From IMG/VR virus record IMGVR_UViG_3300031999_000083, positions 1 to 39,436 of that record: 39,436 nt of DNA; one strand, given 5' to 3'. Below are positions 30,252-37,474 of the stretch, in pieces (the first letter of the stretch is position 1; each line of letters starts with the position of its first letter). The notes under the pieces are model-generated. The model was not told where the DNA came from. It was given only the letters and a program-made list of their open reading frames with translations, and did not search any database. A program made the translations under genes and the position numbers. The stretch comes from a virus.

Positions 30252-30428
30252 TCAGGGGAAGAGAATCTGGAGCCGGGTAGAGAGGCAGAGGTAGGAGGCG
30301 GAGACGCGCTGCATGTAGTTCCAGCTCCCCGCCCGGACAATTACGTCGTGGATGTTATCGAAGAGCACGGCGAACGGGATGAGAACCGCTACCAAGGTAG
30401 CGAGCAGGAGGATGAGTATGGACTTCAT
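30252..30428 (-). CDS. Small membrane protein, 58 residues
   Basis: This encodes 58 residues, beginning MKSILILLLATLVAVLIPFA. The first ~23 residues are a hydrophobic transmembrane helix (or uncleaved signal), and the rest is amphipathic (NIHDVIVRAGSWNYMQRVSA). The ATG overlaps the stop of the upstream glycosyltransferase (ATGA) and the stop lies one base before the terminase ATG, so it is very likely a real gene. It could be a holin, a membrane anchor for the nearby GTs, or an exclusion protein. None is demonstrable. Confidence 0.6.
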   Translation of the reverse strand: MKSILILLLATLVAVLIPFAVLFDNIHDVIVRAGSWNYMQRVSASYLCLSTRLQILFP

Positions 30429-31258
30429 AGATTCAAATCGCGGAGAACCTCACGCGGGGTTTTTCCAAAGGTAGACTTCCCGTTTGCGTACTTGAAGTCG
30501 ATGTCCGCCACCGCGTCGAATCCGCCGTGGCTCCAGAACTGTATCATCGGATTCGGCAGCGTCGCCATCTCTTCTGCATAGGCCCGGTCGAGGTTGACCC
30601 ACTCGTAATCGTCGCGCATGTACTGGTAGGCAAAGGCCCCCATGACATTGGACTCGGAGAAGTTCGCGGCGTCGCTTCGGTTGGACTTCTGGGCGTACGC
30701 GCCGACCCCATACACGTAGTCCTCGAAGGGCATCTGGTGCTGGTTGCTGACGTGGCCGCGCACGCGGGGGAACAGCGACCTCGGGTACATCAGCGGAAGC
30801 CGACGCATGAACTCAAACTCGGGAGTCCACCCGAGGGCAGCCTCGGTTCCTTTGCGCCACGGCTCAATTCCCGGCGCGTACTCGAGCAGCTCCTCGTAGG
30901 AGTTCATCAGCATGACCGGTTTCCCGTTGCGGAAAAAGGGCTCGGGGGTGAAGGCCCCGGAGACTACACAGTCCGAGCCGACCAGCCAAATGTATTCTGC
31001 CCGCGCGCAGAGCACGTCTCCCATCATCATGGAGACCTGTGCGCGGAGGTTGCCAAGACCGGGGGGTCCGTCCACCACCCATACCTCAGCTCCGGGGTAT
31101 TCGCGCGCAGCGATTGCCCGGGCATCCGCCGAGTCCTCATAGGAGACCGAGATGACCGGGGGGAGGAATCCCTTCATGTGCCGGTACAGCGACCGAAGGT
31201 TGACAGCCAACCACGGGAAATCTTTCTTGTACGAGGCGATGAGTACTTGATGAGTCAT
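30425..31258 (-). CDS. Glycosyltransferase-like protein
   Basis: This encodes 277 residues. The N-terminus (HQVLIASYKKDFPWLAVNLR) is typical of a GT-A nucleotide-binding strand. The candidate metal residue is in WLVGSDCVVSG (Asp96), and the C-terminal part has FEDYVYGVGAYAQ and PNPMIQFWSHGGFDAVADID. The SHGG motif near the end is shared with the two following GT paralogs. It overlaps both neighbours by four bases. With the next two genes it forms a three-GT cassette directly upstream of the terminase. Substrates are unknown. Confidence 0.6.
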   Translation of the reverse strand: MTHQVLIASYKKDFPWLAVNLRSLYRHMKGFLPPVISVSYEDSADARAIAAREYPGAEVWVVDGPPGLGNLRAQVSMMMGDVLCARAEYIWLVGSDCVVSGAFTPEPFFRNGKPVMLMNSYEELLEYAPGIEPWRKGTEAALGWTPEFEFMRRLPLMYPRSLFPRVRGHVSNQHQMPFEDYVYGVGAYAQKSNRSDAANFSESNVMGAFAYQYMRDDYEWVNLDRAYAEEMATLPNPMIQFWSHGGFDAVADIDFKYANGKSTFGKTPREVLRDLNL

Positions 31259-32019
31259 AGTCCGAGACGCGCAAAAACTTCACGAGCCGTTGATATACTG
31301 TCGAACCTGTCCGTCACTTTGTCAAGCCCCCCGTGGCTCCAGCCCTCCGCCACAAACCCCTTCGACGGGTTGGCGTGTTGCTTCAGGTCGAGCCACTCGT
31401 AGTCGTTGTGGAAGAACTCCTGCGCGATTGCGCCCAAGGTCTCGAACTCGCAGAACCCCTGCGGGAACTCGTTCTGACGCCCGAGCAGATACTTCTCCAG
31501 CCCCTCTGGGTGCTGCTTCTGCACCGCTCGCCGCAGCTCGACGTACACGCCCCGGTAGTGGACATACGGCGGCGTACACATGGTCGCCAGCTTCACATCG
31601 CCCCCGAGCGCCTCGTCCACCCGGCTCTTCCACATGCCCGGACCCCACGACTGGTCGAGGTCCGCGAACCGGTTGAAGATTCCGAGCAACTTGCCGTCGC
31701 GCATCCACCGGTCTGGGGACACCGGCTGGGTGAATACGGTATCCGCGTCGAGATGGAAAATGATGTCGGTGTCGAGCAGCAGGTCCGCGCAGCACTGCCA
31801 GAACTGGTGCCAGTTGAACCCCGCGCCCGGCCACTCCTCTCCGGTAACCAGCCGCACTCCGTACTTCGCGCACACCCCCGCAAACATGAACTCGTCCCGG
31901 CGCGGGACGAAGCACACGGCGTCATTGAACCCGCGCGCGAACTTGGCGTAGCTGCGGATGGAGTACTCGAACCACTCGATGTCTTTCCCGCAAGTGTTCC
32001 AGAGGAGCCCCGAGGTCAT
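31255..32019 (-). CDS. Glycosyltransferase, paralog of the next gene
   Basis: This encodes 254 residues from the ATG at 32019 (ATGA overlap). The DxD-type motif is HLDADTVFTQP (Asp91, Asp93), preceded by FNWHQFWQC and followed by PQGFCEFETLGAIAQEFF and WSHGGLDKV. The gene at 32016-32798 shares the same motifs in the same order and spacing, so the two arose by tandem duplication. A GT-A fold with metal-dependent sugar transfer is likely. Acceptor may be a virion protein, DNA or a host surface glycan. Confidence 0.7.
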   Translation of the reverse strand: MTSGLLWNTCGKDIEWFEYSIRSYAKFARGFNDAVCFVPRRDEFMFAGVCAKYGVRLVTGEEWPGAGFNWHQFWQCCADLLLDTDIIFHLDADTVFTQPVSPDRWMRDGKLLGIFNRFADLDQSWGPGMWKSRVDEALGGDVKLATMCTPPYVHYRGVYVELRRAVQKQHPEGLEKYLLGRQNEFPQGFCEFETLGAIAQEFFHNDYEWLDLKQHANPSKGFVAEGWSHGGLDKVTDRFDSISTAREVFARLGL

Positions 32020-32798
32020 AGCCCGAGCCTTCGGAACAGCTCCATCGGGCTCTGCACCCCGCCAAGGGCCGGGCCGAAGTCGTGCTGCCGGTTCAACCCT
32101 CCGTGACTGTAACACTGCGCGATGTGACCAATCGACGGATGGGTTTCCTTCTGAAGGTCGAGCCAGTAGTAGTCCTGCTCGTAATAGCGATAGGCGACGG
32201 AGCCCAGAGTCTCGAACTCGCAGAACCCCTGCGGGAAGCTATTCTGCTGCCGGTTGACGTAGGCTGCCCAGCTATGGTTGTGCTTCTCCACCGCCTCGCG
32301 GGTCTTGGCGTAGACGTTGCGGTAGTGGCAGTGCGGATGCCCGGTCATCGTGGCGCGCGTGGCGTCCCCGCCGATGGCGTCGTCCACCCGAGACTTCCAC
32401 TGCCACGGGCCTTCACGCCCGCCGGTCAGCAGATGGTCGAAGGAGACGTACGGACAAATCAATTTCCCTCCACGGACCCAGTCCTCCGGACCGGATGGAC
32501 TAGTGAACATGGTATCCGCGTCCATGTGCCAGATGGCGTCAGCCTCGGGAAAAGCCATGTCTGCCTCGCACTGCTTGAGCTGGTGCCAGTTGAAGGACTT
32601 GTCGGGCCAGTCGTTCTCAGCCAAAAGGGTTATGCCGTTGCGCTCGCACGGTTCGCGGAATGCGTCTCTGTGCCGGGAAGGGACCAGACAGGCAACGGAG
32701 TGGAACCGGCCACGGGCGAACTTAGTAAACGAGGCTGCGCTGTACCGGAACCACGGGAGGTCCCCTTGGTAGGTGTTCCAGAGTAGAGCGGTTTTCAT
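32016..32798 (-). CDS. Glycosyltransferase, paralog of the previous gene
   Basis: This encodes 260 residues. The DxD-type motif is HMDADTMFTSP (Asp93, Asp95), with FNWHQLKQC before it and PQGFCEFETLGSVAYRYY and YSHGGLNRQ after it. It is the first gene of the GT-GT-GT-membrane protein-terminase string. About 190 bases without a recognised gene precede it, so it may have its own transcription start. Divergence from its paralog is large enough to imply different specificity. Confidence 0.7.
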   Translation of the reverse strand: MKTALLWNTYQGDLPWFRYSAASFTKFARGRFHSVACLVPSRHRDAFREPCERNGITLLAENDWPDKSFNWHQLKQCEADMAFPEADAIWHMDADTMFTSPSGPEDWVRGGKLICPYVSFDHLLTGGREGPWQWKSRVDDAIGGDATRATMTGHPHCHYRNVYAKTREAVEKHNHSWAAYVNRQQNSFPQGFCEFETLGSVAYRYYEQDYYWLDLQKETHPSIGHIAQCYSHGGLNRQHDFGPALGGVQSPMELFRRLGL

Positions 32799-33305: not shown

Positions 33306-33379
33306 TGGTTGCGGGGGCAGGAATCGAACCCGCGACCTCGGCTTATGAGACCGGTGTTTTACCACTTCACTACCCCGCA
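33306..33379 (-). tRNA. tRNA with CAU anticodon (Met, or possibly Ile2)
   Basis: The minus strand folds into a cloverleaf of 74 bases. The acceptor stem is TGCGGGG/CCCCGCA, the anticodon loop CTCATAA with anticodon CAU, and the T-arm GCGGG-TTCGATT-CCTGC. Discriminator A and a coded CCA end follow. The anticodon stem has one T-G pair and one mismatch. CAU reads Met codons, unless the C is modified to lysidine (Ile2). It is the only tRNA seen here. Confidence 0.9.
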
Positions 33380-33803: not shown

Positions 33804-33986
33804 GTACGCAACGCTGCGCCCCCCAGAGGCTTCCCTCACAACCAGCACTCCCGAGCCGTCCATCAGTCTCGGCACCATCCCCCGGAAGTTCTTCTGGTCG
33901 GTTCCACCGTCAAAGCGGGGAACCTTCCCCATCCGGCAGTCCACGGTCAGCCGCTGCGTCACTTCGTCAATTAGTTTTAGGTCCAT
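33753..33986 (-). CDS. Small hypothetical protein after the recombinase
   Basis: This encodes 77 residues, beginning MDLKLIDEVTQRLTVDCRMG and ending VVDKSVVGGVSFQHV. The beta-strand-rich C-terminal half (GSGVLVVREASGGRSVAYLV) looks like a compact small domain. The start lies within the last codons of the recombinase (20-base overlap), so it could be translationally coupled. It overlaps the orphan plus-strand gene at its 3' end. No family is recognised and function is unknown. Confidence 0.5.
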   Translation of the reverse strand: MDLKLIDEVTQRLTVDCRMGKVPRFDGGTDQKNFRGMVPRLMDGSGVLVVREASGGRSVAYLVVDKSVVGGVSFQHV

Positions 33987-34677
33987 TGAAATAGCCGTTC
34001 TGTTTTAATACAAACTGAATTGAGCTCTTGCTCCAGCGGCGGCCCCCGCTCGGGCTCGGGAACCGGTTCTCCAGCAAATCGTCGGACACCTCCGACAGCG
34101 ACGCGCCTCCAACCCACGAGCCTATCATCACACTCAACGCCCGCAACTCAATCTCGGCAGCCACCGGGTCCTTGTTGTCTCCGTAGCGGCGGGTTCCGCC
34201 ACAAGGGCGTCCCGTCGCAAGGGCCTTCTTCCGACGTCCCGACTGTAACTTCCTGCACAACTGCGACTTCTCCCACTGTGCGAGCGCCCCGAGGAGCTGA
34301 CGAATCAACACGCGGGTCGGGTCGCCCTCCGCGTTTACCAGCTCCTCACCAGAATCGGCGGAAAAGACTTGGATGCCCCGGCGTTTACACTCTGCGAAGA
34401 AAAGCTCTGAGACGATGAGGTCGCGCCCGAGACGGTCAACTCGTTCCACCACAATGGTATCGACGCCCAGCTCGGGCGTGCAGAGCTCGATAGCCTCCGT
34501 CAGGACTGGCCTGTCCATAACGGAGTCTCCTCCGGACTGCTGCTCGCGGAAATCCCGCAGAACAGACCACCCCTTGGACTCGCAAAACTTGCGAATGGAT
34601 TCAAGCTGGCGCGGAAAGCCATCCCCTTCAACCTGTTGGGCGGTGCTGACGCGCAGATAAGCAAAGACTCGTTTCAT
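33967..34677 (-). CDS. Serine recombinase (resolvase/invertase family)
   Basis: This encodes 236 residues. The catalytic domain is clear: YLRVSTAQQ with nucleophile Ser11, and ERVDRLGRD with conserved Arg79, Arg82 and Arg85. The C-terminal ~90 residues (SLSEVSDDLLENRFPSPSGG, SKSSIQFVLKQNGYF) resemble the start of the recombinase DNA-binding domain. It is longer than Tn3-type resolvases (~185) but far shorter than large phage serine integrases, so it may be a compact recombinase for integration, dimer resolution or inversion. It overlaps the metallopeptidase gene by ATGA. Confidence 0.85.
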   Translation of the reverse strand: MKRVFAYLRVSTAQQVEGDGFPRQLESIRKFCESKGWSVLRDFREQQSGGDSVMDRPVLTEAIELCTPELGVDTIVVERVDRLGRDLIVSELFFAECKRRGIQVFSADSGEELVNAEGDPTRVLIRQLLGALAQWEKSQLCRKLQSGRRKKALATGRPCGGTRRYGDNKDPVAAEIELRALSVMIGSWVGGASLSEVSDDLLENRFPSPSGGRRWSKSSIQFVLKQNGYFNGPKTN

Positions 34678-35322: not shown

Positions 35323-35976
35323 TCATGTAGGGGTTTCCCCCAAGCTGTCGTTCAACAGGTTGGGCGTCAGGGTCTTGGGGGCGGGGAAGTCGAGGTGCTC
35401 TTGGGCTCGGGCCATGAGGGTGGCGGGTGTCTCCTTCCGCATGGCGCTGCTGTTCAGGGCGGCCACCACGGCGGCGTGTAGCGCGTCGCCACTCACGGCA
35501 CCCTCTTCGGTCTCACCACGCTCGTTGCGTTCGGCCACCGAGTCCCCAAGCGCGGCGTAGCACATGTTCTGGGCGTTCTGGATGGCCGTGGACAGGTCCC
35601 GGACGAAGGAGCAACTCAGCTTCAAATCGTGGCCCGGCTTCTCCGACGATGCGCCATTGCGGACCATGCCGATGAGCTCGCGGGGGCCGCGCTCTTCATA
35701 GGCTGCCATGATGCCGGTCAAAAGGGAGCGGAACCGGTGGGCCTGCACGAAGTTCAATGCCCGGTTCTGGGCGCGTTCATAGTCGCCCGGCTTGTTGCTC
35801 TTCGACATCACAGAGAGCCGCCGCACCTTCTCGGACCAGCCCTCTTGCTCAGCAAGCGCCTGCACCAGAGCAGGTTCGAGGTCGAGCGCAGCCGCTGTTC
35901 GGCTCACGTCGCCGACCAACGTCATATAGGTCAGGAAAATCTGGCTGATGTCCAGCTTCGTCTTATCTATCTTCAT
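35323..35976 (-). CDS. Possible small terminase subunit (HTH protein)
   Basis: This encodes 217 residues from the ATG at 35976, overlapping the previous stop (TGATG). The N-terminal part contains a helix-turn-helix-like segment, GDVSRTAAALDLEPALVQAL, as in small terminase or packaging-recognition proteins. The middle is helical with a possible oligomerisation part (DLKLSCSFVRDLSTAIQNAQ). The C-terminus ends in FPAPKTLTPNLLNDSLGE. It is separated from the large subunit by 5 kb, which is atypical, so a transcription regulator remains possible. Confidence 0.5.
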   Translation of the reverse strand: MKIDKTKLDISQIFLTYMTLVGDVSRTAAALDLEPALVQALAEQEGWSEKVRRLSVMSKSNKPGDYERAQNRALNFVQAHRFRSLLTGIMAAYEERGPRELIGMVRNGASSEKPGHDLKLSCSFVRDLSTAIQNAQNMCYAALGDSVAERNERGETEEGAVSGDALHAAVVAALNSSAMRKETPATLMARAQEHLDFPAPKTLTPNLLNDSLGETPT

Positions 35977-36128
35977 CACAACGGTTTGCGTTTGTTCGCG
36001 TCCCACCAAATCGACCGCTCGACGCCACGTCGAAGCTTCTTACTGGCCTCGTGCAACTTGCGGATGTGCTCGGGGGCAGACTGGAAAAGGAAATCTGCGT
36101 CGGACTGTTTCTTCTTCGGCTCAGGCAT
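35976..36128 (-). CDS. Small basic protein, 50 residues, first gene of leftward operon
   Basis: This encodes 50 residues: MPEPKKKQSDADFLFQSAPE followed by a basic amphipathic part (HIRKLHEASKKLRRGVERSI). The frame is open far upstream through the inverted repeat, but ATG 36128 is chosen because a TTGACG/CATCTC promoter ends eight bases before it. The stop overlaps the next start by one base. Its basic nature hints at nucleic-acid binding. No family is recognised. Confidence 0.6.
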   Translation of the reverse strand: MPEPKKKQSDADFLFQSAPEHIRKLHEASKKLRRGVERSIWWDANKRKPL

Positions 36129-36136
36129 ACAAAAGA

Positions 36137-36164
36137 GAGATGCGAACGAAAAGCTCCGCGTCAA
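36137..36164 (-). promoter_or_regulatory. Putative leftward promoter, TTGACG-N16-CATCTC
   Basis: On the minus strand, TTGACG (36164-36159) and CATCTC (36142-36137) are 16 bases apart and eight bases before ATG 36128. The same architecture and -10 box occur at 1150-1177. The -35 box is eight bases from the left arm of the inverted repeat at 36173. Confidence 0.55.
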
Positions 36165-36172
36165 CTTGCGGG

Positions 36173-36366
36173 AGATTGCGCCCTTAAAGTGGGGGGTAGA
36201 GCTCCCAGCTATATCTACTAACACCAAAAATGGTATTCTGATATCTATTATGTGTAGTGAATAAATATAATAAAGAGAAGAGGTGGAAAGCACAAAGACA
36301 TGCCGTGCTCTTTCGGGTTAGTGGATATAGCTGGGAGCTGTACCCCCCACTTTAAGGGCGCAATCT
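36173..36366. repeat. 194-bp element with 50-bp near-perfect inverted repeats
   Basis: Arms at 36173-36222 and 36317-36366 are inverted copies of 50 bases with two mismatches, separated by 94 AT-rich bases that include a TATAAT box (36266-36271). Each arm contains AGCTCCCAGCT, itself a small palindrome. Divergent promoters start eight and nine bases outside the arms. Possible natures are a MITE-like insertion, a symmetric operator, a replication origin or an invertible switch. Confidence 0.95.
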
Positions 36367-36375
36367 GGGGCCTCC

Positions 36376-36403
36376 TTGACAGCCCTTTTCTTTGTGTTAG
36401 GTT
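36376..36403 (+). promoter_or_regulatory. Putative rightward promoter, TTGACA-N16-TAGGTT
   Basis: TTGACA (36376-36381) is followed after 16 bases by TAGGTT (36398-36403). The GTG of a 35-codon gene starts six bases later at 36409, allowing a leaderless or near-leaderless mRNA. The -35 box begins nine bases outside the right arm of the inverted repeat. Confidence 0.5.
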
Positions 36404-36408
36404 GGTAG

Positions 36409-36516
36409 GTGGAAGATATCCGGACACTTAAACGAAATGACACGGTGACGCTTGGTCGCAACTGCGAAACGCTGACCGGCACACTCTTGTACTCCTATCG
36501 CCTCTCCGTCGTATGA
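36409..36516 (+). CDS. Small protein of 35 residues with GTG start
   Basis: This reading frame encodes 35 residues: MEDIRTLKRNDTVTLGRNCE, then a short hydrophobic part (TLLYSYRLSVV). The stop TGA overlaps the ATG of the next gene (ATGA), as is usual in this genome. The GTG lies directly after the putative promoter -10 box, with no ribosome site in front. No family is known. It may be a short leader peptide whose translation couples to the next gene. Confidence 0.45.
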   Translation: MEDIRTLKRNDTVTLGRNCETLTGTLLYSYRLSVV

Positions 36517-36896
36517 GCGAAAAGTCTAATCCGCTGTTCTGGCAGTTCTGCTCCATCCGTTGGGTGGGGACCCAGCACGACACGAAGGAGGCGGGCACCA
36601 CGGGCAGACCGCCCCAGCCCCCGCACTGGGAGACCTATGTGAGGACGCCGTACGGCAAGTTCATCCTCGACTTCCCCTCGCGTGTCCGGGCTGCCGAGTA
36701 CGCAGACATCGTGAAGCTTGCCATGATGGAACAGAACCTCCTCCGCAACTCGACGCGCCCGGTGAAGTTCAACTTCCCGCGCGACCACTACCCCGGAGAC
36801 ATCAAGCCTCTCGTCGGCTCCAAGCTCCGCCAATTTCTCGACAAGGCCAACCACAAACTAAACTCCAAACTCCAAACTCAACCTGCCACTAAATGA
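36513..36896 (+). CDS. AP2-like small protein (127 residues)
   Basis: This encodes 127 residues. The stretch YGKFILDFPSRVRAAEYADI, followed by PVKFNFPRDHYP, matches the AP2/ERF-type pattern: a beta-sheet, then an 'AAxxAD' helix, then 'NFP'. AP2 domains bind DNA and occur in phage homing endonucleases and regulators. The C-terminus is Lys/Gln-rich. The ATG overlaps the stop of the 35-residue gene and its stop overlaps the next gene's start. An early DNA-binding regulator is a reasonable guess, but the match is from pattern only. Confidence 0.5.
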   Translation: MSEKSNPLFWQFCSIRWVGTQHDTKEAGTTGRPPQPPHWETYVRTPYGKFILDFPSRVRAAEYADIVKLAMMEQNLLRNSTRPVKFNFPRDHYPGDIKPLVGSKLRQFLDKANHKLNSKLQTQPATK

Positions 36897-37474
36897 ACAG
36901 CACATTTCAATACTCCGACCGCCACGAATCCTTTTTCGGCTATCGTATCTACATCAAGGGCATCATCGTGAAGGAGGTAGGCTTCGGCACCGAGGCCGAC
37001 GCCGGATGGGCCGCCGACAAAGCACGCAGACTCCTCACTCCCTTCATCGGCAAGAGCAGGCCCTACAACTTCCCGGACCGGGTCCAGCAAATGACGGAGT
37101 CTGAGATGGGCTCCCTCAGCGATGCGTTGCTGGCCTTTTACCATCAACTGTGCCTCGCGTTTCCCTCCGCGTTAGCACCTGCGCTCGCGGTGTCTCCGGC
37201 ACCAGCCGCTGCACCGGCACCGAAACGCGTGATGTCGGTCACCCAACGGGCGGACCTTCAAGCCCAGATTGCAGTGGCGTCTCATAAGCGGGACTGCCTT
37301 CTCGCGGCTGCAACGAACATCCGCGCGGCGTTCGGCGCATACCCGGAAGGTCGTCTCGGCACGACGGTAACCTACCTCAGCGGGCAGGCGGCCCGGCTTG
37401 ACATCGAAGTCTTCGGGTTGGAGAAGCAGCTCCCCGCGCCCGTAGTCTCCCCACTTGACACTGAGACCACCTGA
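36893..37474 (+). CDS. AP2-like protein with Ala/Pro linker and helical C-terminus
   Basis: This encodes 193 residues. The N-terminal domain, GYRIYIKGIIVKEVGFGTEA with WAADKARRLLTPF and RPYNFPD, follows the AP2/ERF pattern (sheet, helix, final NFP). A linker of Ala/Pro repeats (ALAPALAVSPAPAAAPAPK) leads to a C-terminal helical part (QAQIAVASHKRDCLLAAATN). The ATG overlaps the stop of the other AP2-like gene. The pair could be DNA-binding regulators of early genes. Function is inferred. Confidence 0.5.
   Translation: MNSTFQYSDRHESFFGYRIYIKGIIVKEVGFGTEADAGWAADKARRLLTPFIGKSRPYNFPDRVQQMTESEMGSLSDALLAFYHQLCLAFPSALAPALAVSPAPAAAPAPKRVMSVTQRADLQAQIAVASHKRDCLLAAATNIRAAFGAYPEGRLGTTVTYLSGQAARLDIEVFGLEKQLPAPVVSPLDTETT

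Follow-up and report, generated by a model that had tools for sequence, protein, structure and literature searches.

A long palindrome with apparently conserved shape and changing sequence at a candidate control region of an uncultured phage group

HSV OriL is a long palindrome with an AT-rich centre, the arms of which hold conserved UL9-binding boxes, and in the stem-loop origins of CRESS-DNA viruses and of rolling-circle replication the pairing of the stem is kept and its sequence varies. HSV OriL is located between the divergent early replication genes ul29 and ul30 (PMC10541914), and the inverted repeat of pT181-type origins can extrude as a cruciform, its removal impairing replication (PMC3176155). 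The phage palindrome described here is similar to HSV OriL in its divergent placement, as a functional analogy only between unrelated virus groups, but is different in that the OriL arms carry UL9 boxes whereas the phage arms carry no common motif, the origin activity of the phage site being putative. The pT181 origin consists of a short repeat served by a nicking Rep protein, whereas the phage palindromes have arms of 16-88 bp and no Rep nuclease was recognised beside the site. Likewise, the loop of the stem-loop origins is short and carries a conserved nick site, whereas the phage core of 45-176 nt is only AT-rich. Immunity regions of the lambdoid type share with the phage site the divergent promoters, the gene for a DNA-binding protein alongside and the swapping of sequence between close relatives, but that design lacks a long palindrome, and no repressor family was recognised at the phage site. 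AP2 domains of Xanthomonas phages occur in HNH endonucleases (PMC2248197), whereas the protein encoded next to the phage palindrome has long helices after its AP2-like domain and gave no detectable HNH domain. Known elements such as HSV OriL and the cruciform plasmid origins appear to work in a comparable manner, none being demonstrably identical to the phage palindrome.

The window, that is, the whole stretch of DNA analysed, is a virus record of 39,436 bases without end repeats. IMG/VR contains at least 147 relatives of its capsid protein, and no isolate relative was found by capsid, portal or terminase among 50,697 phage records. The longer relatives measure 67-75 kb, and the window probably represents about half of a genome of that size. 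Contigs of two relatives close into circles, G006 by a 127-bp end repeat and G016 with the gene gA (see below) split over the contig ends. The sole match in GTDB was a 12.5-kb contig (L179, JABFSS010000096.1) binned in a Candidatus Peribacteraceae MAG, which may be a hint of the host or a case of misbinning. In the relative G005, one arm of the genome encodes DNA polymerase A, a helicase, a DUF5906-like protein, a PD-(D/E)XK nuclease, a sigma factor and a RuvC-like resolvase, and the other arm encodes terminase, portal, capsid and tail proteins. The palindrome is the point from which these two largely co-directional gene arms, replication vs structural, diverge. The features of the window around this point are as follows.

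33967-34677, minus strand: serine recombinase of the resolvase/invertase type, conserved across most of the group
35323-35976, minus strand: gA, 217 aa, the anchor gene, with a helix-turn-helix-like N-terminus
35976-36128, minus strand: gB, 50 aa, nearest gene to the left of the palindrome and conserved among several relatives
36147-36153, minus strand: CTTTTCG motif, enriched in the left flanks of relatives
36159-36164, minus strand: leftward -35-like box TTGACG, 8 bases beyond the left arm
36173-36222, plus strand: left arm, 50 bp, extendable to 36228 at lower identity
36223-36316, no strand: spacer or core, 65% AT, with TATAAT at 36266-36271
36317-36366, minus strand: right arm, complementary to the left arm at 48/50 positions
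36376-36381, plus strand: rightward -35-like box TTGACA, 9 bases beyond the right arm
36513-36896, plus strand: first rightward gene, 127 aa, divergent AP2-like protein
36893-37474, plus strand: second rightward gene, encoding 193 aa with an AP2/ERF-like DNA-binding domain and long helices

The initial annotation had described two 50-base arms with two mismatches around 94 AT-rich bases, a TATAAT within the spacer and GGG on both sides. All of these were confirmed, with GGG or GGGG bordering the arms, and the pairing could be extended to 56 bp at 93%. The inverted repeat is far beyond chance: it scores 44, and 40 dinucleotide shuffles of the same 1.6 kb averaged 9.6 and did not exceed 12. Upon scanning of the whole window it was the sole inverted repeat with a score of 18 or more. 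A stable fold is predicted for either strand, with z = -13.7 for the single-strand fold.

For comparison with the relatives, the orthologous site was located by the anchor gene gA, and the 1.6 kb upstream of gA was scanned in a total of 42 distinct sites. An inverted repeat scoring at least 15 was identified at 28 of them, the controls of 1,680 shuffles giving a maximum of 16 and a 99th percentile of 12. With L156, in which the repeat is located slightly farther out, also counted as positive, and with L296 (positive) and L297 (negative) added by a later scan, 30 of 44 distinct relatives have one long inverted repeat at this intergenic site, and these come from all parts of the gA tree. The arms range from 16 to 88 bp and the spacers from 45 to 176 bp, the AT content of the spacers being mostly 0.65-0.8 as compared with about 0.45 around them, and whole genomes that carry the palindrome contain no stronger inverted repeat and usually no other. 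A strong palindrome was absent at the remaining 14 sites, some of which carry a degenerate repeat and most an AT-rich core, and therefore the palindrome is not indispensable. These negative sites are scattered over the gA tree, and gain and loss of the palindrome amount to 12 parsimony changes, with clustering no greater than that of shuffled labels.

The arm sequences of different relatives are unrelated. Among the 28 sites, no k-mers were common to the arms above the shuffled expectation, whereas the flanks do share words, and TTATATA or TATATAA was found in 14 of the 28 spacers. No iterons or conserved binding site were found in the arms across the group, although a co-evolving motif may exist within each phage. 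The turnover is best seen between L144 and L145, which are 97% identical in the gA protein and carry different palindromes: the DNA is about 98% identical to about 200 bp upstream of gA, and then almost nothing is alignable at the palindrome, where the arms have only the outer 14 bases (GAAGTCAACCAACT) in common and the two arms of each phage pair almost perfectly. The spacers of L286 and L144 share about 25 bases (AGTCAAC[AG]TGTTTACCTGAAAATGAGAA) in spite of unrelated arms, and this stretch is possibly a protein site or a leftward promoter inside the core.

What seems to be kept is thus the shape of the palindrome and not its sequence. No match for such palindromes in phages was found in the open-access literature, and sequence searches are blind to an element whose shape and position persist while its letters change. 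The palindrome indicates where control of this uncultured phage group, without an isolate relative in the searched collection, is likely to be centred, and a single long inverted repeat at the divergence of gene arms may serve to locate control centres in other metagenomic phage genomes. If the arm sequences change under selection, the group would offer a natural experiment on how phages maintain an origin or switch of their own.

The outward boxes TTGACG and TTGACA, which the initial annotation had placed eight and nine bases from the arms as -35 boxes of divergent promoters, were both found there. The term is fair for these boxes, and the promoters of the window are putative, a simple sigma-70 scan of the window detecting no complete -35/-10 promoter at the palindrome. 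Among the 28 sites of relatives, outward TTGAC was present on the right in 12 and on the left in 11, as compared with about 0.08 expected per site. TTGACA was found in eight right flanks (shuffled maximum, six), and on the left CTTTTC in 12 and TTTTCG in nine (shuffled maximum, seven). The words common to the right flanks are TTGACA and CACACTG(G), with TTGACA/CACACTGG recurring outward, and CTTTTCG is that of the left flanks. The conservation of the site at the divergence of the gene arms and the enrichment of outward TTGAC in relatives support the earlier suggestion, likewise made from the sequence, that the palindrome belongs to a shared regulatory or replication element.

The AP2-like gene holds a fixed position beside the palindrome. 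Its alignment profile matched AP2/ERF domains in PDB (best E, 2.4e-6), and the predicted model of the 36893-37474 protein includes, with high local confidence, a sheet-plus-helix unit in which a small antiparallel sheet is packed on a helix. AP2 ranked first upon Foldseek search with the model, the match being weak (best E, 0.17), and no Pfam match was obtained. In L145, extra sequence absent from L144 is present between the palindrome and the AP2-like gene, possibly a homing-endonuclease-like insertion.

From these features we infer the function of the palindrome region, and our preferred, tentative reading is that the two gene arms of an uncultured phage group with genomes of about 70-75 kb are controlled from this divergent region, which is probably also the origin of bidirectional replication. 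As in palindromic origins, a long palindrome with an AT-rich centre stands between divergent units with the replication genes in one arm; all of these genes are in one arm diverging from the palindrome, but they are not directly adjacent to it. The minimum of GC skew is located 237 bp from the palindrome in G005, 75 bp in G038 and 1.7-4.6 kb in G021, G022 and G047, and the skew does not point to the palindrome in G012, G031, G033 and G044. Skew is confounded with gene direction; a gene-level regression on ten genomes gave +0.033 (95% interval, 0.013-0.052) for the effect of the arm, apart from that of the coding strand, the minority-strand genes in this regression being mechanical ORF calls. 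GC skew is partial evidence, a support for the origin and not a proof. The lack of an iteron or conserved arm site counts against an origin because a sequence-specific initiator would usually need one.

The mechanism that we propose starts from what was observed, i.e., the position, the pairing, the AT-rich core, the flank motifs, the AP2-like neighbour and the fast turnover of arms with pairing kept. The AT-rich core at the centre of the long palindrome would be easily opened, and of the outward promoters one would serve the early or replication arm and the other the packaging and structural arm. Under negative superhelicity, raised by the two diverging transcription units, the core would open and the palindrome would extrude as a cruciform. 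The region would be bound by a phage protein, the AP2-like product of the first rightward gene or genes being the most likely one, and replication, the early-late switch or both would start from there. A further proposal, which we consider unlikely, is that the origin is recognised by DNA shape. Pairing would be kept, while each phage would have an origin sequence of its own, replaced entirely even among close relatives and possibly along with the AP2-like protein that binds it, as a device for incompatibility or against parasites.

The enriched flank words (outward TTGAC, with TTGACA/CACACTGG right of the palindrome and CTTTTCG left of it) and the adjoining gene for a DNA-binding AP2-like protein would also suit a purely transcriptional switch, in which a divergent early/late promoter and operator is regulated by the AP2-like protein as in immunity systems, and the palindrome is a symmetric operator platform or a supercoil sink with no role in replication. 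The sharp replacement of the region between close relatives also resembles the exchange of phage immunity regions. However, the arms carry no common motif, near-perfect arms of 30-88 bp far exceed the needs of an operator, and the skew minimum coincides with the palindrome in some genomes, so that this explanation is possible but lies on the unlikely side.

The 12 gains and losses at one place, the unconstrained arm sequence and an AT-rich core that outlasts the palindrome could also be accounted for if the palindrome were an unselected by-product of replication, made and perfected by template switching at a fork stalling or restarting at an AT-rich origin. Template switching that perfects quasi-palindromes is established (e.g., PMC3820800). 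The presence of near-perfect long arms at 30 of the 44 sites, however, would imply a very high rate or else selection, and similar repeats are hardly present elsewhere in the same genomes; a by-product is improbable.

A packaging or genome-end element of pac or cos type, recognised by terminase, was considered because gA looks like a small terminase subunit. gA adjoins the palindrome site throughout the group, and several contigs end near the site. On the other hand, no family match was found for gA, leaving its role as a terminase subunit putative, the contigs of G006 and G016 are circular, contig ends occur in many places, and sites of this type are normally conserved in sequence within a group. 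We regard a packaging element as very doubtful.

Since either strand folds stably, a hairpin-forming non-coding RNA, or paired 5' leaders, might be transcribed from the core. Mismatches in the arms, however, include 17 G-T and 21 A-C, neither strand having a wobble bias, and therefore DNA pairing or homogenisation is favoured over an RNA helix; in addition, Rfam at the gathering threshold detected only a tRNA, in five relatives. An RNA element is highly improbable. A match of the window to MIR4240 in Rfam was rejected, its 41 bits being far below the threshold of 200 bits.

The initial annotation had also raised a MITE-like insertion and inversion of the spacer with a serine recombinase nearby. 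The terminal-repeat-like anatomy, the GGG on both sides and the recombinase gene speak for a MITE or a phase-variable switch, but either is scarcely credible. Unrelated sequence occupies the orthologous position in relatives. No other copies of the arms were found in the record, IMG/VR or GTDB representatives by exact 18-24-mers, a search that could miss diverged copies, and BLASTN against phages and plasmids gave no match to the palindrome. Relatives carry a palindrome, unrelated in sequence, at the same site in place of an empty one, and only GGG is found on both sides. The spacer was in the identical orientation in all assembled near-identical contigs compared, which represent several lineages and separate metagenomes. 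No conserved recombination sites were found in the repeats, the arms of which lack common k-mers.

The serine recombinase gene is indeed nearby, about 1.5 kb from the left arm, and no sign was found that its product acts on the palindrome. Genes for the serine recombinase and for a RuvC-like protein both occur in 25 of 27 genomes, independently of the presence of a palindrome. As obligate partners both were rejected: G060 (L175) keeps a palindrome of 51 bp with no resolvase-family match, which also speaks against an inversion switch, and G031 keeps one with no RuvC-like match. Between the serine recombinase and glycosyltransferase-like genes, the window carries a tRNA-Met (CAT) gene (33306-33379, minus strand), and homologous stretches are found in several relatives. 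The glycosyltransferase-like genes are arranged in tandem near terminase (30425-32798, minus strand), and their copy number varies between relatives.
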